Program-made: the position numbers and the translations under genes
In this document: one piece after another, positions 11,001 to 55,237 of the stretch
Layout of the letters: each line of letters starts with the position of its first letter
Numbering within the stretch: position 1 is the first letter of the stretch
Source of the DNA: Loxodes magnus
Taxonomy: Eukaryota; Ciliophora; Karyorelictea; Loxodida; Loxodidae
NCBI GenBank assembly: GCA_946699065.1
Contig: CAMPDV010001283.1
Location: 1 to 64,000, forward strand
Direction of reading: 5' to 3'
Length of the DNA: 64,000 bases
Notes under the pieces: model-generated
Databases searched by the model: none
Told to the model about the DNA's origin: nothing
Seen by the model: the letters and a program-made list of their open reading frames with translations, nothing else

Positions 11001-13655
11001 AATTTAAAGCATTCCAATTATTTTTAAAAAACTTAAAATTAAATTATTATAATTTTAAATGGATTTAATTTAAAGAATCCCATATTAGCTACCGTTAACT
11101 AGCTTAAATCAAATTTTCTTATTTCATATTAAGAGTTTAAATTTAAGATGTATGAAATTATCAAATTTAATATTGCTAATCCTTAAGCATTGCTTAATAA
11201 TCAAGAAAAAGGCCACATTTTACAAAAATTTTCCTCTTAAAAGCAAATATATTAAATATAAAATTTCTCTTAAATTATATCTTTTTCTTCAAGCTAATTA
11301 ATAAATTAAGTTTAATTTAACTAAATGAAATATCTTTATATAAGCTATTACATCTTAATTAGCTAATTTTAAGCTAAAGTTTAAAATTTAATAAAGTAAA
11401 GCATATAATAATAAATACCTTAAACTTACGCTTCTTTTAAAATATTAAACAATTATTAAATATTAATAAGCTTATACATCCAATATATAAAGTTAGAAAC
11501 TTTTGTATTTTAATTAACTAATTAAACAATAAAAAATATAATAATTATATAGATTTAAAATATTTTAGCTTTAATTATAAATAGACAATAAATTTATAAT
11601 TATAGATAAATAGTTAAATAAAAGTTTTATAACTTATTTATTTTAAATATAATAGCTATCTCTTATTAATTTAGTAATTTATAGCTATTTATTTAAATAT
11701 ATTACCCTCATAATTATTCTTTAATATTCTAATCTTATCTTTAATTTTTATCTTTTAAAGACTGCATTTTATCTTACTTATCTAGTATTTTATTTTAAAA
11801 CAATTAGAAGATATAATAAAGCTAAAATTTATGAAATATATCTTGATAAATAATTAAACTTGCAATTAATTTAATTAGCAGCATTAAACACAAAGAGTAT
11901 TCGAAAATAAATAAATGATTTAAAGACTCTTACCTTTAATAATTAACTTACAAATGCTTATAAATATTGTCCTTTAAAATGAAGGATATAAACTAATGAA
12001 TGAGACATTTGATTATAAATATTAATGTATATACTTTTTTAAATAATTCAACTTTATAACTAATCTCAATTATAGCTCTTTGCTATTATATGTTATTTTA
12101 TTGAACTTTCAAACATTGATAATAAAATTTAAAAAGAGATTTATCTAGCGTCAACCTTGTTAATTTTCATAAGCTTATTATCTAAATTTTAAATTATTAT
12201 AGGCTTGGTAATATCAAGCTAAACCTTAATAATCATGAAAAGAAAAACTTTAATAGCTAAATAAAGAATTTAAGGTTTTAGTTATGATAAAATAAAGAGA
12301 GGTTATAAGTAAGTTTTACTAATACTAAAAATAAAATAAATGAGATTTATAAAAACTAATTAAATTCTAAATTACTTAATGATGAAGAATAGAAAGATAT
12401 AACAATTTGCAAAAAAGATATATATATTTAAAATAACTAATAACTCTATTTAATTAAATTTTAATTATAATTATATTATGGAATAATATCTTTCTAAACT
12501 TGCTTAAATTATTAATATAGTGAAAAGAGAAATTTAAAAAAGATCTGACCTCGCTAGAGATTTAATTATTATGCGACAATTAATTTGAAAAAGGAACAAC
12601 CTTGAAGACGAAATCAATCTTTGAGTATTTGTTTAAAATAAACTAAACATAATCATTCTTAAAGAAAACTTTTTATAGCATTATCTTTTAATTTAGCTTA
12701 TAAAAAAACGGTATACCCAGTTTATAGGATTTAATTAAGAATAATCTAATTTATTAAGTGATTTATAATTTATGGTAAATTTGTGAAATATTTATAATGG
12801 ATAGTTACTAAAAATATTATAAAGGTAAAGATAGACGTATGATATACATAGTTCTTTATGTTATTCTAAAGAACACAATTTTATATTCTAATTAAGCAGA
12901 CTTTCCTATAAATTTTTAAATCTTTAATCTAATTAAAAATATAATTAAAATTTTATTTCATTAAAATATAAAAAACATTTAGATATAATCTTATAAACAT
13001 ATATTTGGTAAATTTTACTATTAATTGTAAGTAATATCTTAGATATTTATCTAAATAGTTAATTAATTATTTAATTAATTAAATGAGATTTAACACTCTA
13101 CATTAGTTAAGTTTAACTAAGTTAATTAATTTTTTTATTTTATTGATATAATAAATTTAAAAGGTAGATATGCTGATAATTATTATATATCTTTCAACTA
13201 AAATCAAATATTTAATAAAAGATCTTCGTACTTATATAATTTAAAATTTAACAATTTAAGATTTTTAACATTATAAATATTAAAGAAATTTTCTTTATAA
13301 ATCATAACTAAATTAGAAGTTCTTTTGTATTAATATTATTAATCTTGCAAATTTAAATTGATGTAAAGGCTTGGCTCAAAGATACTAAGCTTTTCTACTT
13401 TAATTTAAATTTAAAAATTAAAATTCCAAATAAAAATAAAATGTATATAGCTGTATAATTTATAGAATTAATAAAGAATTTAACTATAATTATCTTAGAA
13501 ATCTATAAGCCTAATTAGACATTATTTTAATGGATATATTTTTTTTTATTACTCTTATTATTTTTACCTTTACTAAATTATCAGCTTAAGGCTTTTTATA
13601 TTTTATCCTTTATTCTGCTTAATAAATATCATTTTTTTTAAATAGCTAGCATTTT
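10740..13655. repeat. Segmental duplication, copy 1
   Basis: This 2.9-kb segment matches 56725-59140 in the same orientation, with many substitutions and small indels. Shared landmarks: the acetyltransferase remnant at the left, TTTTATCTTTTAAAGACTGC near 11745 and 57235, AGGTTTTAGTTATGATAAAA near 12271 and 57761, and TACCTTTACTAAATTATCAG near 13565 and 59048. Copy 2 lacks about 0.5 kb around 11210-11690. The right boundary falls at the 3' end of the unrecognised gene that starts at 13629. Weaker similarity extends to the third locus at 20850-23000. Confidence 0.8.
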
Positions 13656-43619: not shown

Positions 43620-44009
43620 AAAAAGAAAAATCACATATCAGTTTAATGTTAATTGGACATAGAGATTCAGGAAAATCTACTACAATATAAATATTGTTTA
43701 AAGGTTTGGAAATTATGGAAAGAGTAAGATTGAGAAATATTATAAGGAAGTTAAATGAATAGTAAATAATTAATTGAAATTTGCAAGTATATGAGATAGA
43801 CTAAAAGATGAACGTGAATGTGGAATTATAATTGATATAGACCTACTTATAATATAAACGCCTACATATAACTATACAATTATAAATACCCCTGAACATC
43901 TTAACTTAAAAAGAATACGAAAGAAGGCATTTCTCTAGCTGATATTGCCCTTAGGATAAAATCGGCTGCTACTGGAGAATTCGAAGCTGGTTTTTTAAAA
44001 GAAGGATAA

Positions 44010-44748
44010 TAATAATAGTATAATAATTGATTAACGTGTAGTCACCTTTAATTAGTTGTCCACGGATTAATTTTTTATTGTTAAGTAATAGAAACTTCAA
44101 ATTTGTCTGGATCAAGTCTATCATATATCTTCAAGATTTTTAACTTATTTTTACTAATGGTTTCTTATAGGTCAATTCACATTCATTTCTTATTGAACTC
44201 ATTAAATGCTTGCTAAATTTGTGGAGCTTCTTTGTTTAGTTTAAATATTTTTTTCCTATAAATTTTTCCTTCTTTGAGTACAATAGATTCTAAAAATATT
44301 TTCCCATTATTTTTCTACAATTCTTTTTTCTTTAAGTCTAAATTGGAAGCAATTCCGTACTTTATGTCTAGGTCTCTTGCAATATCAGCATATCATAATT
44401 TTCCGATAAGGAATATAAATTGTTGGAGTTTGCGGTTTGACAGCCGATGAATCATTCATCGAATTTTTTAGAGGAATATGATTTCATTTAACTCTGCGAT
44501 TGGTTGAGTTTTTTTTCTAGCTCTTTCATTCCGATATTTTCTGACTTTTTATTTTCAATTTCTTGTTCTTATTAATTAATTATCAGGTATTCGATTTTCC
44601 TTTCGAGTTCTTATACTGTTCTTAGGAGTTTCAAATTTTATAATTATATAGCTTGGAGTTCTTAAAGTATTTTTTACTTATCATAACTTGGTTGAGATTC
44701 AGCCTTTAAAGAAGAGATATTTTGCAATAAATTTTCCATTTTTTATCT
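44010..44748 (-). mobile_element. ORF1-only retroposon A, inserted in eEF1A
   Basis: A 739-bp insertion precisely interrupts the Gln codon of the eEF1A KEGQ-TREQ junction. Only ATAA is repeated at the two ends (44006-44009 and 44749-44752). In its own orientation it starts 9 bases before its ATG (GATAAAAAATGG) and ends in a TTA-rich tail (TTATTATTAT). It carries no reverse transcriptase. Organisation and tail match the elements at 46961, 48888 and 54389. Because the host gene is known, the ends of this element are defined independently of any repeat search. Confidence 0.85.
44042..44739 (-). CDS. Retroposon A ORF1: coiled-coil protein with CCHC zinc knuckle
   Basis: ATG at 44739-44737, nine bases from the element's end. 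Residues 1-90 are a Gln/Glu/Lys/Leu coiled coil (ILQELQAIQLQNLKLLRTVQ). At 44390-44349 the frame reads C-[TGA]-YC-KRPR-H-KVRN-C, a CX2CX4HX4C zinc knuckle like those of retroelement Gag/ORF1 proteins. Downstream are KQWENIF and EGKIYRKKIF, also found in the sister elements. Two phase changes (near 44460 and 44300) are needed to join the blocks, so this copy is decayed. It probably served as a nucleic-acid-binding packaging protein. Confidence 0.7.
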
Positions 44749-45655
44749 ATAAACTAGAGAATAAGCATTTCTTGCTTTCACTTAGGAATAAAATAAATAA
44801 TAGTAGGAGTTAATAAAATAGATGATAATACAGTAAATTTGAAAATAAACTATTTGAAGAAATCTAAAATAAAGAAATACATTTTTTAGGAAATAGGAAG
44901 AAACACAGAAAAGATTCAATTTGCTCCTATTTATGTTTGGTAGGAAGATAACTTGACTGAACCTTTTAGTAGTATGAATTGGTATTAAGGACCAACTCTT
45001 CTTTAATGTTTAGATGCAATTTATCAACCAAAAAAGATTAATAAACTTTTTCTTATACCTCCTTTAAATGCTTATAAAATTAAAGGAGTTTGAGCAATTG
45101 CAGTCAGAAGAACAGAAGCAGGATTTTTGAAAACTGGTATGGTTGTTTCATTTACTCCTGTAATTTTAACAGGAGAAGTAATTTCAATAAAATGCATCAT
45201 AAGAAATTTGAAGGAGCGACTCTAGAAGATAAAATAGTATTTAATTTAAAAGGCTTATCTACTGAAGATAAAAAGAAAGGTTATGCATGTGTAAATACAA
45301 AAGATGATTTACCAAAGAAAATAGGATCTTTCTTAGCTTAAGTGATAATTTTGAATCATCCTGGTTAAATTTAGAAGGGATATTGTTCTGCTTTAAGCTT
45401 TCATACTGCTCATATTGCTTGCAAGTTTTAGGAATTGAAATAGAAAATAGATAGAAACATAGATGCAGTAATAGAAGAAGAGCTTTAATATTAGAAAGTA
45501 GAAGAAGTAGCTATTGTTTAATTAGTTCTAAGACAGCCAATGTGTTGAAACATTTTAATAATACTCTCTGCTAGAAGATTTGCAATTCAAGATATGAAAT
45601 AATTAGAAACAGTAGAAGTGTTAAGGAAGTGTAGAAGAAAGAAATAGGAAAGAAT

Positions 45656-46429
45656 AATGTAAGGAAAAAAATTATAAAATAAATGAAGATTAATTTTCAA
45701 AGAAGAGACTTTTAGATGAAAAATGAATTTTTATTTAGTTTACATAAGAAAGAATATAAAGTATTTAATTTATTTTAAAATTAATAATGCAAATATGAAT
45801 AGATAATTAAGCTAGTTAACAATTTGATATAACATCATAATAAATGATTTAGGTAGCTAAATAAAATTCTATGTATTTGCATAAGGGATACCAAGTATTT
45901 TAAAATAATAAAAGAATAAATACTTTTGATTTTCCTTAAAGATATAAATATAAACATTAATTTAAATAAAATAAACAAAATCTATTTATGTAATTCTACT
46001 ATTTAATTATTTATGCATTATGAAATTTATTTAAAGCATTTTTTAGTCAAATAATACCAAGATTAAAGAAAAACAATCAATAATGGCTAAATTAAGTTAT
46101 ATTATAATAATTATTTGGGTGAATCCAGTTTTATCATTCACTTTTCTTTTAATTTTTCTGTTAGAATATTTTTATTTAAAGTCCTTCATAAGATTGATAG
46201 TGATCATATTATTTATAAATATTTATTCTTAAATAAATGCGAAACATTTAACAATGGTATTATATAAAAATCTAATTTAATAAAATTTCACTATGATTTT
46301 ATTATAAAAATATCATTAATAAATGAATTTAGTTCTAGAGATATAGCTTAAATAATTAATTAAAAATAAAAGCTTAATGATTTACATGTTTTATCTATAT
46401 CATACATAATTTATAATAAACTAATTAGT
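45656..46429. other. Intergenic AT-rich DNA
   Basis: No gene, RNA or clear repeat between the eEF1A remnant and the reverse-transcriptase fragment. Confidence 0.5.
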
Positions 46430-46900
46430 AAAATGCTTTAGTTTCCTTATAACTTTGATAATTTGCTACTAAGTCCTTGAATAATCATATATTTGAATAT
46501 ATCTAATTTTTTATAATTAATTATAATTCTACTTAATTAAATCATAGGAATTCTAGCAAATGCTTTATAATATATCATAGAAGATATTAGCAAGAACTGG
46601 ACCATGAGCTTCCTTACAATATTCCATTTTACTAAATTATAAGCTTTTTGAAATATAAAATATAAATAGAATCTACTATCTAATTATGATAAAACGGTTC
46701 AAAGCAATTTATAAAGCGGGGGTTGTTTTATTCTACGTAAACGATTAAGCAATAATCTCCAAGTAATACTGTCAAACATTTTTTCTGCAGCTGTAGTGGT
46801 TGTAAATAGGTATTTATTATCTTTCTTGTCCTATATGTGAATCATTAGTTTATATAAAGTATAAACTAGATTCTCTGCTTATCTTATTATTGAAAATCGT
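46430..46900 (-). pseudogene. LINE-type reverse transcriptase fragment
   Basis: The minus strand reads the finger-to-palm region of a non-LTR retrotransposon reverse transcriptase. QAENLVYTLYKLM is the upstream helix. AAEKMFDSITWRLLLNRL at ~46800-46735 matches the motif A consensus DxEKAFDSI, with the catalytic Asp replaced by Ala. After a frameshift, EAHGPVLANIFYDIL at ~46620-46570 corresponds to the QGxxLSPxLF motif B. No endonuclease domain and no YADD motif are seen, so this is a short dead fragment. It lies 60 bases from retroposon B, head to head with it. It shows that the genome hosts LINEs able to mobilise such elements. Confidence 0.7.
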
Positions 46901-46944
46901 TGTTATGAGATTAATTTTAGTTAATAAATATAATCTTAGAATCT

Positions 46945-46960
46945 TTAGATTAATATTTCA
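46945..46960 (+). repeat. Target-site duplication, left of retroposon B
   Basis: TTAGATTAATATTTCA, repeated exactly at 47803-47818 on the other side of the element. The last base or two may overlap the TTA tail. Confidence 0.85.
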
Positions 46961-47804
46961 GAAAAAAAAATGGATAAATCTCTTCGACTCTCAAAAAATT
47001 AACTTAGAAACCTAAAGAGAAAAGCGGCAAAAGAAATTTAGAAAAAATAATAACAATAGGAGGAGTCAAGCTCTTCTTCAGAAGGTAAAGTTATGGTAGG
47101 ATAAATAGAGATAAGTTAACCTAAAAACGAAACTAATCAAAAACTTTAAATTTAATTAGACCAAATGTAAAAGGTAATCTCAAATTATGAAGAAACAACT
47201 TACAACTTAGGCGAAAAAATACGGGAACTAATGAGTAACATAGAAGATTAGAACAACGGATTACTAATACTTAGAAGATAACTTATTTGTAGCAAATTAA
47301 TAACGGAAGAATAACTCTGAACTTAATCATAATAAAATTTTAAATACGACACAAAAATGGAAATAGAAAAAATACCAATAGAATTAAAAACAGAATTGAA
47401 TCCAGAAAAAGAAATGATTGCTACAAGTTTCATTAAAAGATTAGAAAATATAGAAAATAAATTATCATAAAAAAGAACGAAATAAAGACAATATAACAAA
47501 CTTTGTTGATGTTGCAAATCAAATCAACATATTTTAAAAAACTGTTGATAATGAAAGAAAATAAACGAATAAGAGCAGAAAAGAACATGGAGACAACTCA
47601 ATAAACTATGAATAACTCCAACAGGGATCTACAAATAAAAGCTTTTTGCAAGACCACTTGAACGGTTACAGTGGTAACCTTCCACTTAATAAAAAGGTCG
47701 TGGATCACACCCACGTTAAAAAAACTGTTCACAGAAACTGGTTGCAATTCCAGAGAATGCAAAACTCTACTAACTTTAAGTATATTATTATTATTATTAT
47801 TATT
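46961..47804 (+). mobile_element. ORF1-only retroposon B with 16-bp target-site duplication
   Basis: An approximately 844-bp element. The 5' end is GAAAAAAAAATGG, with the ATG nine bases in. The 3' end is a (TTA)n tract at 47783-47804. It is flanked by the exact 16-bp direct repeat TTAGATTAATATTTCA (46945-46960 and 47803-47818). A long target-site duplication and a simple-repeat tail are hallmarks of target-primed reverse transcription. The element contains one ORF and no polymerase, so it must have moved in trans. Confidence 0.85.
46970..47611 (+). CDS. Retroposon B ORF1: coiled-coil/CCHC protein
   Basis: The frame from the ATG at 46970 is open without any phase change through the whole element if TGA is sense. 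It has a basic, Gln-rich N-terminus (KRKAAKEIQKKQQQQEESSSS), a coiled coil (~residues 40-115), a KMEIEK motif and a zinc knuckle at 47504-47545 reading C-[TGA]-CC-KSNQ-H-ILKN-C. Next come TWRQLNKL and GIYKQKLF, matching EIWREL and GRIYRRRIF in element D. TGA codons occur at the zinc knuckle, twice just after it, and at 47609-47611, taken here as a possible stop. However, the similarity to element D continues past that TGA, so the protein may run to the TTA tail (~275 residues). Confidence 0.7.
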
Positions 47805-47818
47805 AGATTAATATTTCA
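47803..47818 (+). repeat. Target-site duplication, right of retroposon B
   Basis: Second copy of TTAGATTAATATTTCA, identical to 46945-46960. Confidence 0.85.
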
Positions 47819-48873
47819 ACAAATTTCTTTTAAATTACTTTTATGAGCGTAATTTGTCTCCATTTCTTCCAATCACTCTTAAATTACTTTTTAAATTGAA
47901 AGGAATCTTACTTTTCTGAATTTATCAGGAATGGCTTTGGCTTAAACATATTATTAATAAATTTTTACAAGATAAGATGAAATTCCATTTTTGTATATTT
48001 GATAAACTTTGCTTTTGCCCCATCTGTTCTAAATAATTTATAATTACCAATTTCTTTATTTCCTAAACTTCATTAGAACAAAAAGATATAATCTTTACAA
48101 ATAAGAAGCTTAATTTTTTTTTTCAAAGGTACAAATTCTTAAATATTATAAATCCTTTAGTTATTTTTTTTATTTCTGTTTCATCAATATTATTATGCTT
48201 GCTGAAAGAATTACCTTCCCAGTTAGCAAATTAAATGAATCCTTGTTGGTATGATACTATAAAGCCGAATTATAAAAGCATTATAAGTGATTACTAATTA
48301 TATTGGTTGAAATAATTTTAGGTTTTAGATATATTAAATATAAGAGACTTAAAGCTATTCTTTTAATTATTTATTTAATTATTAGATAAATAAAAGGATA
48401 TATAATAAAGCTAGTTAATTTCTAACTCTTAATTATGATAATTATTCAAATCTTACAAGTTTTAAAAATTATTTAGTCTTAAATAAATAATAACTTTAGT
48501 TCATTTTTAAGCAACACTTTATTAATTAATATGATCAAATATTAAATTATCTTTCTAATCTTTCATTATATAAAACTATAATGAAAAGGAAAAATAAATA
48601 AAATAAGGTATTATACTCAAATTTTAAGAAAACTTATTACACTTAAAATTAAATTTCATTTTACTTAAATTCTAAAATTAATATACCAAGTTTGCTAAAT
48701 TTAATTAAAAACAGCTCTAAATTTATTAAGTGATTTATAATTTAAAAATTAAGATAGAAATAATAAAGATTATATAATAACTAATTACTAAAGCCACCAT
48801 AAAAGTTAACAAATATAATTAAAATTATCCTATTATTCATATAGTTCTACTAAAGCATGAAAACTTAAATTTA
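47819..48873. other. Intergenic AT-rich DNA
   Basis: One kilobase between retroposons B and C with nothing recognisable. Confidence 0.5.
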
Positions 48874-48887
48874 ATATTAATCATTAA
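48874..48887. repeat. Target-site duplication, left of retroposon C
   Basis: ATATTAATCATTAA, matching ATATTAATTATTAA at 49922-49935 with one mismatch. The mismatch suggests an older insertion than B or D. Confidence 0.6.
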
Positions 48888-49921
48888 TCATTAAAGCAGA
48901 TGTTCGCCTTCCAGCTTAATTGAAGTTTTAAATGTATAATATCTCCTTTCCTGCATGTTCGTTCTTTTCATTGTTCCTTTTCCTTGACTTCTCTCTTTTG
49001 AATAATCAGTTTTAATATTTTTTCCAGATTTTCCCATTTCCCGATGGGAAGAATTCCGTCGCTCGCTACTTCAGTTGCCATTAGTTAACATTTCTCCTGA
49101 TATTCATTCTTTTTTTTATTATGGACATTTCCTCTATAAATATCAAGTGCTGTTGCAAATATAGCTTCTTTTTTTGCTCTCGGAAATGTCTTTTCTTGTT
49201 TCTCTATTTCCATTGGAGTTCCTTATGAAGGCTTCTACAGGTTTTCTTTTATTAATTTGAGAATCTAATTTTTCTCAGTTTTTCTTGTCTTGTTCTTGCA
49301 ATACTCAGATATCATTCTCTAAACTTGCCATTTGCTCTTAAACTCACGCTTTAGCTCTTCGGTCCACCATATGGGCTTCATCATCATTTTCATGATTTAT
49401 CAAATCCTGACTTAATACAAACATCTCTTCCTTCTGATAGTTTAATTCCTCTTCGAGATTTTTTATGCTTCTAATAAGTTGATAAATCAGCTTTTTCATC
49501 TACTCAGAGTCCATTTGTTCTATTTCAGTATTGTATAATTCGAAGGTAATAGGATCTATATTGAATTATCGTACTTTTTCTTCTTCATTTCTTTTTTTAA
49601 TTTTTTCTTTATTATTTTTATCGATTCAGTTGAATGGTCTCTTTTATCACTTTTCAATGGAGGTGTTGAGAGCTGTGTTAACTTTTCTGTTCTTAATTTT
49701 TATCTCAGTTCTTTTTTGTCTTTTGATGAGAGGGTTCCGTTTTATTTTAATTTGTATGAGTTAGTATTTTTTATAAGTTCTTCTAATTTATTAGATAGTT
49801 CTGGTTATTTTTATTAAGAAGAGCGTTAAGTTGAAGAAGACATGGTGAGAATATGTGCTTCTGGTTTACTCTCCTGTTCTGATGAGGTGGTAAAAAAACC
49901 CTTCTTGAAGCCAGCCATTTT
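48888..49921 (-). mobile_element. ORF1-only retroposon C
   Basis: An approximately 1,034-bp element on the minus strand, starting AAAATGG and ending ...GCTTTAATGA next to a 14-bp, one-mismatch target-site duplication. It has the same plan as A, B and D: an ATG at the very 5' end, one ORF, no polymerase and an AT-rich tail. It is the longest of the four, and its base composition is visibly less A/T-rich than the flanks. Confidence 0.7.
48968..49918 (-). CDS. Retroposon C ORF1: coiled-coil protein without a clear zinc knuckle
   Basis: Starts MAGFKKGFFTTSSEQESKPE, resembling element D. A basic region (to ~residue 115) is followed, after a phase change near 49580, by a long coiled coil (YNTEIEQMDSEQMKKLIYQL, then QVLQEQDKKNQEKL). 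After a second phase change near 49235 comes PMEIEKQEKTFPRAKKEA, then a globular-looking stretch (KCQLMATEVASDGILPIG) ending at the TGA at 48970-48968. I do not find the CCHC knuckle seen in A, B and D; the end may be a different domain. The two frameshifts point to decay or consensus error. Confidence 0.6.
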
Positions 49922-49935
49922 ATATTAATTATTAA
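49922..49935. repeat. Target-site duplication, right of retroposon C
   Basis: ATATTAATTATTAA, partner of 48874-48887 with one mismatch. Confidence 0.6.
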
Positions 49936-50648
49936 ATTAATTTTCCTTATATAAAAGTAATATCTTGCTTAGTCTTTAATCTAATTTAAAATACAAAGTT
50001 ATTTAATTAGATTTAAAAGATACATATGCTTAAAGCAAGCTTCTTAAGCTTAATTTATTTTATTTTATTTTATTTCTTCTATTAGTTGTAATAATACTCA
50101 AAACGCTACTTATTTAAAAAATTATTAATTTTACTTTAATATCTAAAATGAGATTTAATACTTAATTCAGTTACTAATAATATTCTAACATTCTTAAAAT
50201 CTGTATTCTATTGATCTAACTTTATAAAAGGCTATTTTGATTATTTATTGTATATACTTACCAATAAAAATAATAAAAATAACTAAATTTTTAAAAAACT
50301 ATCAAACTTCATTAATATAAATTGCTAACTTTATAGAAATAGTTGAAAGTTTAGATTAAAGATAAAATCTAAGAAGAAATTGATGTATATTAATATCTTA
50401 ATTCTAAAAATGTAAATATTTAAATATTATTTACAAGATAATAAATTATTTATTTTTATAATTAAAGTTATTTAATTAATTTTCACTATTTACTTAGTTT
50501 ATATCAAGCAAAATGTTTTGTAGTCTAATATCTTAGAAATAGATAAGCTTAATTAAACATATCATATATTTATAGATATTTTAATTTACTTTTATTCAAT
50601 TTTCTTCATGAAAAACTTAAAATTAATAGATTTTTATTTTTTCTTCTA
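49936..50648. other. Intergenic AT-rich DNA
   Basis: No recognisable gene. It lies just downstream of the unrecognised gene that ends at 50649. Confidence 0.5.
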
Positions 50649-52995
50649 TCAACTTTTGGTTATTTTATTTTTTAATTTATTGCTTATTTTAACTAGCTTA
50701 TATAATAATTAAATTTTTTTTTGAAAATTAGTGCATTCAAATTATAAATTTTTATTTTATTCAATAACAATTAAAAAAGTTTAAACTTAAGATAAAGTAG
50801 TTTCTTTATTATCTTCTACTAGTTTATTAAGTTTTTTAGACATCTTCTTAGAAATAGAGAATATTGATGCTCCGAGTTTTAAAAGTTTGAGCTGCATTTC
50901 TTTAACTCATTACTTGTTGCTTTTAAAAAACTTTTGTAAAATAATATATCCATATAGCTTATTCGATACATTATCTCAATTTCTGCTGTTTATGCTAGTG
51001 TAATTTTCGCTCTTTATATCATTTTTTATTATTTACTTTTCGGCTTTATTTCTACCTACGTATGAGAAGGTTTTTAAAACAAGCAACTAGAAAACACTTC
51101 CTATTACTAATAAATTTTGCTTTTGCTAATTAGATAACAAAGCTTTTTATAGCTTGTATTTGTCTGGATCTAAACATATTTCTGCTACTAATATTTTAGT
51201 TATGAGTCAAAAACATATAATCATTGAATTAACTTCATTATCATGATTAATGAAGTTCTTAGCCATTCTATTCTTTTCATAAGAAGTAAAAACTTCATTT
51301 GCAATATTTTTTTCTGAATTAGTAAGTATTTTATTAAAGAAAAAGGCTAAACTTATAGGCAATTAATATCTATTTTCATTAAGATTGTTATAAAGCTTTA
51401 CTATTATCTACTTTATTTCCTGATCTATTTTGCTTATTTTTTGTTTTTAATTTTTTTAGCTGGAATTTCTAAACATATTAATGTTTTCTTATATCTCTAA
51501 GTTATTTTCGCTATTTACTAACTTACTTAAATCATTCTTTTCATTTATGATAAATCTTAAGGTTCCGCTTAATATTTGTCTAAGTCACTTTTAAGTTATT
51601 TACTTATTATCTGAATATAAAACTTCATAGTCTATGTCTTAGCTTTAATATTAATTAAATATCTCAAAAGTTTATTAATCTAGAGTTATAGTATAATTAA
51701 GTTCCCCCGAAATGGATTTTTATATTTCTTAAATCTCTTTTCTTTCATATTTGTTTTCTTCTTTTAATGCTTTTTATTTATTGGTAAAGAAATGCTTATT
51801 TTTCTAAATTTGGTAATCTCTTATTTCTTTTTGCTTTAGCTATAGTAATCATTAATTCTAAATCTATTGCAAATATTGATTATTGACGAAATTTCTATTT
51901 TATTTGTACTAACTTTGGTTAAAGTTTTTTTGATTGAAAGATTTTTTTGGTGCTATAGTATAAGACTAGTTAGCGAATTCTTATTAGCACTATTCTTTTA
52001 TAATTTATTCTTCTTTCACTTTTAAGTTCTTATTTTCAAAATTTCTTCCTATTATATTAATATTAGAGCCTCACCATTTTGTCTATTTACTATTTTAATC
52101 TTTTAAATATTTCTCACTTTTGATCTTATTAAGTGGAAGATTCTCATCAAAAAAGTTTTTTACTATTCAAGTTTTTAACTGAATTTGATGTCTTGAGAAT
52201 AAAATCTTTTTTAAGAAATTTATTTAAGTAATCGTTTTATTAAAAACTCTAATACATTGATTATTAAGTATCTTGTACAAAAAAATTAGATTCATTTACT
52301 CTTAGCTAATTTTTTTTATAATTAGAAGTTTTTCTATAACCTTAAGGAGAATCTTCTTATTATTTTTAAGAGACCGAAAATATTTAAGGAGTGGGTTATA
52401 TTTTTGATTTATTTACTTATTTAATTATTTAATTTTAAGTCTACAGTCTCTATATTTCTTCAGTGTCTTCAAATTAAAGGAAATTTTTAGTAATTTTATT
52501 TTATAAGTTGACAATTGGAGATATTGAATATTATAATTAGCTGCTATTTGAGTCTTCTTTATTATTATAACTAATATTAGTTTTTTTATTTTTCTTTTGG
52601 TTTATTTATTCCATTTTCATTGAAGATATTTTAAGAGAAGAATCTTATGAAGAAATTTTTATTTCTTATATGTGTTTTTAGGTTGATTTAGATGCTAATT
52701 AATTTCAGTAGCTTTAAGATTGTTTAGCTATAAAGGTTATTCTTAACTTTGCTAAACTACCATGTTCTAATATTCCTATTTGCCAACAATTATCAAGTTG
52801 TTTTAGACATTCAATTGTTTAATCTTCGGCAATTATATAAAATTTTAGGATTTTGTCTACTATATTTCCATTTTATAGAAATGAAAGGAAATATTTATTA
52901 TTAAAATAAAACTTCTGGTGCCAAAGTTAATTTATCATATATTAAATCATTTTGGCAAAGGATTTAACACTCACTAGAGTCGATAAAATCTAACT
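50649..52995 (-). CDS. Unrecognised helical protein gene, copy 2 (better preserved)
   Basis: Read on the minus strand, long blocks are continuous when TAA/TAG are Gln and TGA is Trp. In order: QNGNIVDKILKFYIIAEDQT, then RNKRLPNLEKQAFLYQQIKK, ILSGTLRFIINEKNDLSKL, KISKIDQEIKQIIVKLYNNL, and HDNEVNSMIICF-TGA-LITKIL. The end is a Lys-rich tail and a TGA at 50651-50649. One base is missing from an A run near 51770, and the 5' end is uncertain because two frames compete near 52900. It is conserved against 13629-15880, mostly through synonymous change in the best block, so it was under coding selection. I recognise no domain; it looks helical and soluble or peripheral. Confidence 0.55.
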
Positions 52996-54374
52996 CCCTT
53001 ACCTCAATAAACAAAGTTAAAAAAGAATGAAAATTTAAGTTTTATAGAAAGGTGAATAGCAATACCTTTTATTCTTTAATTTAAACAAGTTTTATCCTTA
53101 AGTTAATTAGTTGTATATCAAATGTGTATTTTAATAATTTGGGTTTTTAGCTAATGATAAAATTGTAAATATGAAATTTAAGTTTTAAGAGCAATCTTTT
53201 AAATTTTATACCTCTTGTTTCAACTTTTAGTAATATAATTAAACTTATTCGCTTAAAATGATATTTCACTACCTAAAAATTATTTTTCATCTTAAGCATC
53301 TATATCTAGCATAAAATAATATATTTAGCCTAAATTATTGTAGAGGCTAATTTAAAATTTTGTGATTATATTTATAATTAAAAACTTAGTTCTAATTTAA
53401 TTCCTCTACTTCTTAATATCATAGCTACAAGTAAGAAAAAGCTATTTATTACTTAAAGTTAGATTCATTTTAATAAGTTTGGAAATTCTAAGAATATTAC
53501 CTTAATAAGTTTAGTAGATTAATTTTTTCTATATGGTTAACAAGTGAGTTCATAATTATTATTATTAGCTAAAATATAATCATAATTAAATAAATAACTC
53601 TTAATAAATAAATGAATAAAGATATTTATCTTATACTTTAATTATTTCTAGTATAAGGTTTCTTATTCAGTTTTCTTTAATATTCATACAATTTTACTAA
53701 CTAATATTCTATTTTATTTATAAAACTTACTTAAATATATTATTTTAAAATTTAAGTTTAATAGTCAATATCTACTAAAAAAGAACTTCTATTTAAATTA
53801 ATAAAATTTAAAACAAGTTTAGAAAATAATAATGGTAGCCTAGTATATTTAGAATATTATAAATCTTAAATATATAAAACTAAATATTAAATAATAAATA
53901 TTTAGAAATGTATAAAAGAATCTAGTTAGTATACATTTAATAATAGAATATTAAAGCAGCAATCATTATTTTAAAGGAATTAAATTCTATCTTTATTTTT
54001 AATTTGAAAGATCTTATGAATAATCTTTAAAACTTAGTAGATAGCAGAATTTAAATGATTTTTTAAAATAACAAAATTAAAAATCCTAAAATATCTAAGT
54101 GAAATAAACTTAAAATTATTAAGAATTGTTTATAATAAAATATTAATTTATACTCTATTTTAAAATAAAATATACTAGAAAGTATAATAATCATAATATT
54201 AATAAATTTTAAAGTAAACATTATGAAATTAATATAATATTCATTAATATAGCTATATTTAAAAATAATAAAATAACTCTAATTTATACAGATATAATTT
54301 ATTGTTTATATTATAAATTATGCTTAATATTAACAAAAACCAAATTAGAATAAATAAGTAATTTTATTATTTTA
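52996..54374. other. Intergenic AT-rich DNA
   Basis: No gene or repeat recognised; very A/T-rich. Confidence 0.5.
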
Positions 54375-54388
54375 AATATTTAATAATT
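54375..54388 (+). repeat. Target-site duplication, left of retroposon D
   Basis: AATATTTAATAATT, repeated exactly at 55224-55237. Confidence 0.8.
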
Positions 54389-55223
54389 AGAAAAAAATGG
54401 CAGAAGGTCTCAAGAAGGGTTTTTTGTAGGCTCCATAGATAAAGGAGCAAAAACCAGAGACTTCTAATTCTTCATCCATCACGTCCTCTTTAATAAAATA
54501 ATAATCTTCTTAAACTTAATAACCTCTAATAGTTGAAAATTAAAGACAATCTTAAATAAAATAAGAACTTAAATAAGCATAAACAGAATAAAACTAATAA
54601 TAAAATATTGATTTTCTTCCTAAACCTAGGCCAAGCAACTATAGGAAATAAGAGAATCCAAAAACGATGCAAAAACAGGCAAATGAAGAATAATTATTAA
54701 TTGAAAGTCTTTTGAAATCTGTGCGTATTCTGTAAGAAGAAGTAAAAATATTAAGATAAGAAAACAAAAAATTATTAGAAAAAAGTTAAAATACTGAAGA
54801 AAGATTAGTCAAATAAGAATTCGAAGTATAGCAACTTGGACAAAAAAGAATAGAGCCTCTAATCTAAGAAATAAAAATGGAAGTAGAAGACGATAAGTAA
54901 AAAGAACCAACCAATATTAGAAGGATTCTCAAGAGATGTTACCTGTGCTAATCAAGATTCCATAGATTCAAGAGTTGCAAGATATACAAGGAAAAGATGA
55001 AGAGAAACAGCGAAGAAATCTGAAGAGAATTAACAAGAATTTACGTGACGATAGAAGGAAGAATTTACAGAAGAAGAATTTTCCATTCGAGTTCCAGAAC
55101 TCCGAAAAAACTGGATGACCCGAACTTTTATTTTAAGCATACAGGAGCGATCACTGGATGTCAGTGGAAATGAGGTTGAAATACCTCAAAACCACAAACA
55201 CTTTAATTAAGTATATTATTATT
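54389..55223 (+). mobile_element. ORF1-only retroposon D with 14-bp target-site duplication
   Basis: An 835-bp element flanked by the exact 14-bp repeat AATATTTAATAATT. It starts AGAAAAAAATGG (ATG at the ninth base) and ends CTTTAATTAAGTATATTATTATT, very like the end of element B (CTTTAAGTATATTATTATT). It is the best-preserved member: one intact ORF and perfect flanking repeats, hence probably the youngest insertion in the window. Confidence 0.88.
54397..55173 (+). CDS. Retroposon D ORF1: Gln-rich, coiled-coil, CCHC zinc-knuckle protein
   Basis: A 259-codon frame from the ATG at 54397 to the TGA at 55171-55173, with one internal TGA (55021-55023). The N-terminus is MAEGLKKGFLQ, followed by a Ser/Gln-rich linker. 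A coiled coil spans ~residues 100-155 (LLKSVRILQEEVKILRQENK). Then come EIKMEVED and the zinc knuckle C-YL-C-QSRF-H-RFKS-C at 54937-54978 (CX2CX4HX4C). The C-terminal basic domain contains EI-TGA-REL and EGRIYRRRIF. Elements A and B have TGG (Trp) at the place of the internal TGA. CCHC plus coiled coil is the plan of LINE ORF1/Gag proteins, which bind and package RNA. No enzymatic domain is present. Confidence 0.82.
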
Positions 55224-55237
55224 AATATTTAATAATT
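55224..55237 (+). repeat. Target-site duplication, right of retroposon D
   Basis: Second exact copy of AATATTTAATAATT. Confidence 0.8.

Follow-up and report, generated by a model that had tools for sequence, protein, structure and literature searches.

The four short repeats described in this study, elements A, B, C and D of the ciliate Loxodes magnus, are very probably non-autonomous retroposons of the kind without long terminal repeats (non-LTR), which have one gene each, for a small protein with a zinc knuckle and probably a coiled coil, and which live as coat-only parasites of long interspersed nuclear elements (LINEs). They lie in positions 1 to 64,000 of contig CAMPDV010001283.1 (C1283; assembly GCA_946699065.1), and this 64,000-nucleotide stretch is referred to as the window. 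The common plan given in the original prediction was recovered in all four: each starts about 7–9 bases ahead of an ATG that lies in A-rich sequence, ends in a tail rich in AT/TTA, and lacks a polymerase.

As described in the Loxodes genome paper (PMC11441545), L. magnus has a 706 Mbp macronuclear assembly and reportedly lacks the extensive DNA elimination that clears repeats in other ciliates. Our DNA searches covered the whole assembly of 705,730,643 bases in 7843 contigs, and only the 40 or so best rows per element were scored out of loose first-look candidates (A 2819, B 1793, C 3026, D 1342), which are unconfirmed as copy numbers and may overlap among the four sets. Among these best-scoring rows, whose identities are biased upward by that choice and which include the window copies, essentially full-length matches made up 40/40 for A, 40/41 for B, 40/40 for C and 40/41 for D, confirming that the repeats are genuine. 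Frames were translated with NCBI code 27 (TGA = Trp); TGA in L. magnus is reported to encode Trp, or to act as a stop when near the poly-A tail (PMC11441545), and in-frame TGA, TAA and TAG were all present in reverse transcriptase (RT) domains of the genome (150 of 3403 candidates scored in the RT search). The names LINE12, LINE15, LINE16 and C504, and the L-numbers, are labels for LINEs or loci of this analysis.

Recent insertions and fixed ends of the elements

Element D (54389 to 55223, plus strand, start approximate) was identified as a very young retroposon carrying only a first open reading frame (ORF1), based on the genome rows, its target-site duplication (TSD) and empty allelic sites. 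Its rows were essentially full-length at 99–100% identity in 40/41 cases, and the remaining row was a full-length relative of 72% identity (L047). The young copies differ from the majority by 1–6 substitutions over 820 bp, and 27/30 are free of indels. When conserved ends were looked for, a check named in the original prediction, 30 D loci with differing flanks showed a common 5′ end (A-rich, then ATGG) and a common 3′ end (AATTAAGTATAT, then TTA repeats). Exact TSDs of 12–19 bp were found at 24 of the 25 independent sites (the 30 loci minus five same-site duplicates), and in the control a repeat of 9 bp was reached by 4% of 600 mismatched flank pairs. The window copy is bounded by the 14-bp TSD AATATTTAATAATT at 54375 to 54388 and 55224 to 55237 (plus strand), seen in the comparison of its flanks and of the allelic contigs; D is absent, and a single uninterrupted copy of this sequence is present, in 3/3 allelic contigs examined (C1834 and C4532, about 94.5–94.9% alike, and C2483, 98.9–99.0%). 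Copies of D are dispersed inside many contigs with differing flanks, that is, insertion is not confined to telomeres. One copy (L031) was inserted within the tail of an A-type element, and L047 is positioned head-to-tail behind one D copy.

The open reading frame (ORF) of D in code 27 (54397 to 55173, plus strand, 258 amino acids) contains an internal TGA read as Trp and has its probable stop at TGA 55171–55173. It is thus longer than first noted: the TGA at which the earlier frame had stopped probably encodes Trp, because L047 has TGG at the same codon. With the 258-amino-acid frame, the 3′ untranslated region (UTR) is 50 bp, close to the species' median of 41 bp and mean of 53 bp (PMC11441545). 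The protein starts with MAEGLKKGFL and continues through a coil-like middle and a CCHC zinc knuckle (CYLCQSRFHRFKSC, 54937 to 54978, plus strand) to the motif WREL..RIY..GRIYRRRIF.

Element B (about 46961 to 47802, plus strand) is likewise a young ORF1-only retroposon, based on genome rows and the alignment of its copies. Its rows were full-length at 98–100% identity in 40/41 cases, the other row being a 30-base tail, and 13/13 aligned copies were uniform, measuring 816 bp from ATG to GTATAT without indels and with 0–8 differences. Exact TSDs of 13–19 bp were observed in 11/13 copies, and a repeat of 10 bp was reached by 2/156 mismatched pairs; the window copy carries a 16-bp TSD, TTAGATTAATATTTCA, at 46945 to 46960 and 47803 to 47818 (plus strand). 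Read with TGA as Trp, the B frame passes through several in-frame TGA codons and extends from 46970 to the last of them at 47611 (plus strand), with candidate stops at 47318, 47507, 47546, 47552 and 47609. Its CCHC knuckle, found by translation and profile, is located at 47504 to 47545 (plus strand).

Elements A and C are older. Element A (44010 to 44748, minus strand) gave 40/40 essentially full-length rows at 88–100% identity, 34/40 of them at 88–93%. Element C (48890 to 49925, minus strand) gave 40/40 essentially full-length rows, 35/40 at 89–90% and five at 100%, and these five probably represent one locus on allelic contigs, the window included. The window copies of both carry frameshifts, in keeping with the row identities of 88–93% (A) and 89–90% (C), a correction to the single ORF that had been predicted for each. 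Similarly, TSDs had been claimed for three elements, and those of B (16 bp) and D (14 bp) stood; around the window copy of A, however, the best repeat was 5 bp, equalled by 736/1000 random pairs, and around that of C it was 7 bp, equalled by 159/1000, neither being convincing.

None of the 30 D copies (mostly with 1.5 kb flanks), of the 12 B copies with their flanks of about 60 bp, or the window copy of B runs on into an endonuclease (EN) or RT; each ends in the common tail, and the sequences beyond it differ from copy to copy. Continuity with an ORF2 RT, the result that the original prediction had named as refuting it, was thus looked for in these copies and not found. For A and C, the lack of EN and RT was seen in the window copies and, in part, in relatives. 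Protein probes of ORF2 from three LINEs gave no match in the window and one match in 24 D-flank loci (1.5 kb on each side), at L030, on the strand opposite to D. TSDs and LINE-like insertion would also fit copies of LINEs that were truncated, or processed pseudogenes that derive from zinc-knuckle genes of the host. We give almost no weight to that explanation, since the 5′ and 3′ ends of the D and B copies are fixed with no ORF2 attached, first-look candidates are many, there are multiple divergent lineages, and the LINE-type 3′ stem-loops described below are not expected in retrocopies of genes.

The D flanks, a non-random sample of the genome, contained further ORF1-only copies by profile at L022, L031, L032, L039 (cut by the end of the locus), L041, L044 and L045, with a weak match at L035 (8.3 bits); L043 held what looked by eye like the 3′ end of a LINE12. 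A small unselected sample, 16 segments of 1.5 kb each (24 kb), contained a single ORF1-only copy and lacked ORF2 matches. A match to the LINE15 5′ end in the window at 11016 was dismissed after reading as AT-rich chance similarity.

Regarding the surroundings of the four elements, A interrupts a putative eEF1A-like gene remnant (window 43950 to 45620, plus strand): its right flank matched GTP-eEF1A_C and GTP_EFTU_D3 in Pfam, and its left flank had no Pfam match, with GEFEAG-like residues recognized by eye. The region recurs on the allelic or duplicated contigs C1834, C4532, C2483 and C4758, and in the listed rows all four of these carry C, three carry A and two carry B.

The zinc-knuckle protein and selection on its gene

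The CCHC knuckles predicted for A, B and D were confirmed by translation and by a profile whose seeds were D, L047, B and the element at L016, taken over the knuckle and the motif behind it. This profile also matched A, which was outside the seeds (22–23 bits for the knuckle region), L009 (39 bits), L014 (18) and L010 (15), and scored −0.8 with the LINE12 ORF1 knuckle. The knuckle of A (C-W-Y-C-x4-H-x4-C, with W from TGA) is at 44349 to 44390 (minus strand), in a frame that differs from that of the first ORF. After the knuckle, a motif of approximately W-R-x-L-x-[RK]-[IL]-Y ... G-[RK]-[IL]-Y-[RK]-[RK] is kept, together with the knuckle, across A, B and D. By the knuckle and this new motif, the proteins of A, B and D are homologues, though divergent; that of C may be related, to judge by eye from the knuckle CYICNSTWHLWRKC of L045 (10.8 bits). 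The claim that several divergent ORF1-only lineages coexist, rather than one recent burst, stands for all four elements, with the amendment that B and D include very recent bursts and that the A, B and D proteins share ancestry.

From reading of the sequences and weak matches in the PDB, the proteins are probably basic coiled coils. With the D protein, nothing significant was found in the PDB (the best hits were to a segment of Rho GEF 7, E 0.22, and to the coiled coil of MDV1, E 1.2), and 0/516 candidates from a large protein database reached E ≤ 1. For the proteins of D and B, Pfam recognized no family with E ≤ 1, hence no Transposase_22, RRM, CTD, PHD or esterase; sensitivity for RRM is limited, as Pfam recognized none in the LINE ORF1s of this genome either.

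Purifying selection on the D/B frame between lineages was clear in 3/4 of the pairs that were compared with controls carrying their base changes at random positions (300 shuffles per pair), in the dN/dS test of ORF1 that the original prediction had proposed. The ratio of nonsynonymous to synonymous substitution (dN/dS) was 0.32 for D–L047 (shuffled median 0.78), 0.24 for B–L039 (0.63) and 0.27 for B–L022 (0.95), with 0/300 shuffles as low in each case, and the wrong frames of these three pairs gave 0.68–1.21. The shuffled medians, 0.47–0.95, place the neutral value below 1 with the dN/dS method used. Low dN/dS between lineages, together with neutral variants among the young D copies, suggests that selection acts in those lineages from which copies arise, in the manner of a gene needed by its own element.

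These data also bear on the explanation that the ORFs are incidental, the elements being SINE-like RNAs (SINE, short interspersed nuclear element) moved by their ends alone and the protein a relic. The lack of selection among young D copies and the frameshifts in the window copies of A and C are in its favor. It is nevertheless very improbable, as dN/dS is 0.24–0.32 in the right frame in those three shuffle-tested pairs, the knuckle and C-terminal motif are kept across A, B and D, and most of D is ORF, leaving the 50-bp 3′ UTR.

Further ORF1-only lineages are probable. One comprises an element at L010, downstream of its LINE and just behind the LINE 3′ end, and another at L032, which are 85% alike. 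The other is at L011 (about 8980 to 8100, minus strand), with a long frame starting MSGLQKGFF and the knuckle CYKCGSQKHLYRQC; by eye it follows the same plan, with a (TTA)5 tail and a TSD of about 10 bp, and the profile scored only 3.7 bits.

Ends shared with LINEs and the origin of the elements

The LINEs examined carry a different ORF1. The ORF1 of LINE12 (L010, L012, L013) and LINE15 (L015) ends in a knuckle, and among the ORF1 regions of L110–L115, 6/6 match LINE15 ORF1 and 5/6 LINE12 ORF1 too. An A–D-type protein was recognized in 0/11 LINE ORF1 regions (L010, L012, L013, L015, L016 and L110–L115, L016 being tested for the absence of the profile only), the profile giving ≤3.2 bits, which is chance level. 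As about 2700 RT copies or domains are reported for the genome (PMC11441545), a LINE with this protein may exist among the others. RRM-like folds suspected by eye in the LINE ORF1s received no support from Pfam, and these proteins are therefore called LINE-type ORF1. Over 3.6 kb upstream of the RT at eight loci, the sole strong profile match was at L009 (74 bits).

The ends of the elements, on the other hand, resemble those of LINEs in part. A-type 3′ ends matched the LINE15/C504 clade with scores above the best of 500 shuffles: 58 against 39 for A–C504, 46 against 43 for L031–C504, 57 against 46 for L044–C504, and 50 against 37 for L016A–LINE15. LINE12 was rejected as the 3′ donor of A, 160/500 shuffles being as good. 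A 30-nt stem-loop, located in A at 44035 to 44064 (minus strand), is common to A-type elements and two LINE copies, with 43/48 cells paired (89.6%) and a covariation score reached by 6/500 shuffles. Another stem-loop is common to B (47737 to 47754, plus strand), D (55171 to 55188, plus strand), L047, L014 and L022, with 23/25 cells paired and a covariation score reached by 0/500 shuffles; these 18-nt hairpins, which MAFFT had broken up when aligning the B/D 3′ ends, were lined up by eye. At the 5′ end, the first 91 bp of C match LINE12 at 81%, D and C are 80% alike over about 45 bp with similar first ten residues, and inspection by eye showed an MxxFKKGF-like start in C and LINE12 and a looser version of it in D. 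As for the partner LINE that the original prediction proposed to look for, the LINE15/C504 clade is a candidate for A, with which it has the 3′ end in common; none was found for B, C or D among the LINE 3′ ends compared.

Such resemblances would also fit the elements being half-LINEs in the HAL1 sense, deletion products of a present or past LINE with this ORF1, on which selection acted during service to that LINE. The C–LINE12 match with its MxxFKKGF-like start and the match of A-type 3′ ends to a LINE clade speak for this origin, and an exchange of ORF1 between LINEs has been proposed elsewhere (PMC4120745). We regard it as unlikely, because the profile stays at chance in the ORF1 regions of 11 LINEs, with L110–L115 matching LINE15 ORF1 instead. 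Furthermore, neither D nor L047, its relative of 72% identity, has an RT, and the two have both ends in common, so that their ancestor was probably RT-less as well.

For the elements as coat-only parasites of LINEs, the following mechanism is proposed. The transcript would start at the A-rich leader, and the translated coat protein would multimerize and bind its own RNA; such action in cis would explain why selection keeps the gene. The RT of a LINE may then recognize the 3′ stem-loop and tail, and the RNA would be copied at the nicked target by target-primed reverse transcription, aided by TTA microhomology. The extra bases between the TSD and the A-tract, as well as the TTA-rich targets, seem to fit target-primed reverse transcription with microhomology.

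Several observations weigh against this interpretation. Among young D copies, the ratio of nonsynonymous to synonymous polymorphism (pN/pS) is about 1 (1.05–1.07) and indels occur in 3/30, though this is expected for dead-on-arrival copies. Constraint was weaker in the fourth shuffle-tested pair, B–L041 (dN/dS 0.46, shuffled median 0.65, 7/300 as low), and pairs evaluated without shuffles were nearer neutral (L014–L022, 0.67–0.68; L010–L032, 0.40–0.63; C–L045, 0.59–0.82 in three frames). At L009, the A-like copy lies about 0.4 kb upstream of a truncated LINE12 RT, with no room for an endonuclease, and short pieces of LINE16 3′ ends were detected by DNA probes in the D flanks L019 and L044. In the stem-loop sets, which are small and were lined up by eye, pairs changed on both sides were unremarkable, being reached by 117/500 shuffles in the A-type/LINE set (n = 6) and by 83/500 in the B/D set (n = 5). 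An RT donor for B, C and D was not found among the LINE 3′ ends compared: B matched C504 in the tail only (2/500 shuffles as good), D matched it by score only (6/500 as good), and the 3′ end of C matched no LINE.

Concerning the LINEs themselves, the 3′ ends of LINE12 in 13/14 RT stretches (L051–L064 except L058) share, with small changes, a GC-rich hairpin, GAGCTGCGCACC...GGTGCTACGCGCTC, followed by a TTTA-rich tail; L058 had no recognizable 3′ end, and neither did L101 and L105 among the stretches fetched by the LINE15-based search. On contigs C5131 and C20, head-to-tail RT arrays with a spacing of 2532 bp (2501–2504 in part of C5131) represent tandem arrays of LINE fragments. A LINE15-type RT at G000:C1014:20002-20733 was listed with an open frame of 2835 amino acids, compared with about 150–300 for others.

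Comparison with known systems

In listings of the open-access literature, no description of ORF1-only or gag-only non-LTR elements in ciliates or Loxodes was found, in line with the original statement that none was known in ciliates, and the Loxodes genome paper (PMC11441545) does not use the words "non-autonomous", "SINE" or "gag" in its main text. That paper describes the L. magnus LINEs rnd-1_family-27 and -19, 5–6 kb in length with EN and RT (PMC11441545). These LINEs, which appear to belong to the same genome, are plausible RT donors; they differ from A–D in having EN and RT, and the LINEs examined here have another ORF1. In the scheme of Khazina and Weichenrieder, LINE ORF1 proteins fall into types I–V (PMC4120745). 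The A–D protein resembles type I in its CCHC knuckle and type II in its probable coiled coil, whereas the RRM immediately upstream of the knuckle in type I was not recognized in D or B by Pfam, within its limited sensitivity.

Like LINE-dependent SINEs, the elements are short and RT-less, and the A-type 3′ end is common to a LINE clade. To our knowledge, SINEs have no conserved protein gene, whereas the present elements do. The elements may, although we stop just short of calling it probable, form a class of coat-only retroposons apart from both SINEs and half-LINEs, with an RNA-binding gene foreign to the LINEs of the same genome and kept by selection in cis, with LINE-like ends (the 5′ leader of C like LINE12, the 3′ stem-loop of A like the LINE15 clade), and with lineages diverged beyond DNA alignment. 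Why an element that borrows its RT should keep a coat gene is an open question, and several lineages here keep one. Because such lineages come with young copies that are nearly identical, with an allele free of the insertion and with ends like those of LINEs, cis-preference, the function of ORF1 and the pairing of parasite and host LINE become directly testable. Coat-only elements may also make up some of the 757,000 repeats of L. magnus that were reported as unclassified (PMC11441545).

The nearest known kinds are HeT-A and HAL1. HeT-A of Drosophila telomeres encodes only a Gag-like protein, its enzymes presumably coming from another element (PMC3776773, PMC3357415). The A–D-type elements share this Gag-only coding capacity, but they reside at dispersed sites with TSDs, whereas HeT-A is found only at chromosome ends in tandem arrays. 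HAL1, the half-L1 of mammals, is similarly RT-less, ORF1-bearing, dispersed and presumably LINE-mobilized. Its machinery is likely provided by L1 (PMC4161310). The D and B proteins lack the L1 ORF1 domain Transposase_22 (Pfam, E ≤ 1). The protein of HAL1 is L1 ORF1 itself, whereas the protein described here is not recognizably any LINE ORF1 examined (0/11), and several lineages coexist, two of them with very recent copies. The parallel with HAL1 drawn in the original prediction is therefore limited to layout, in which the two systems do agree.

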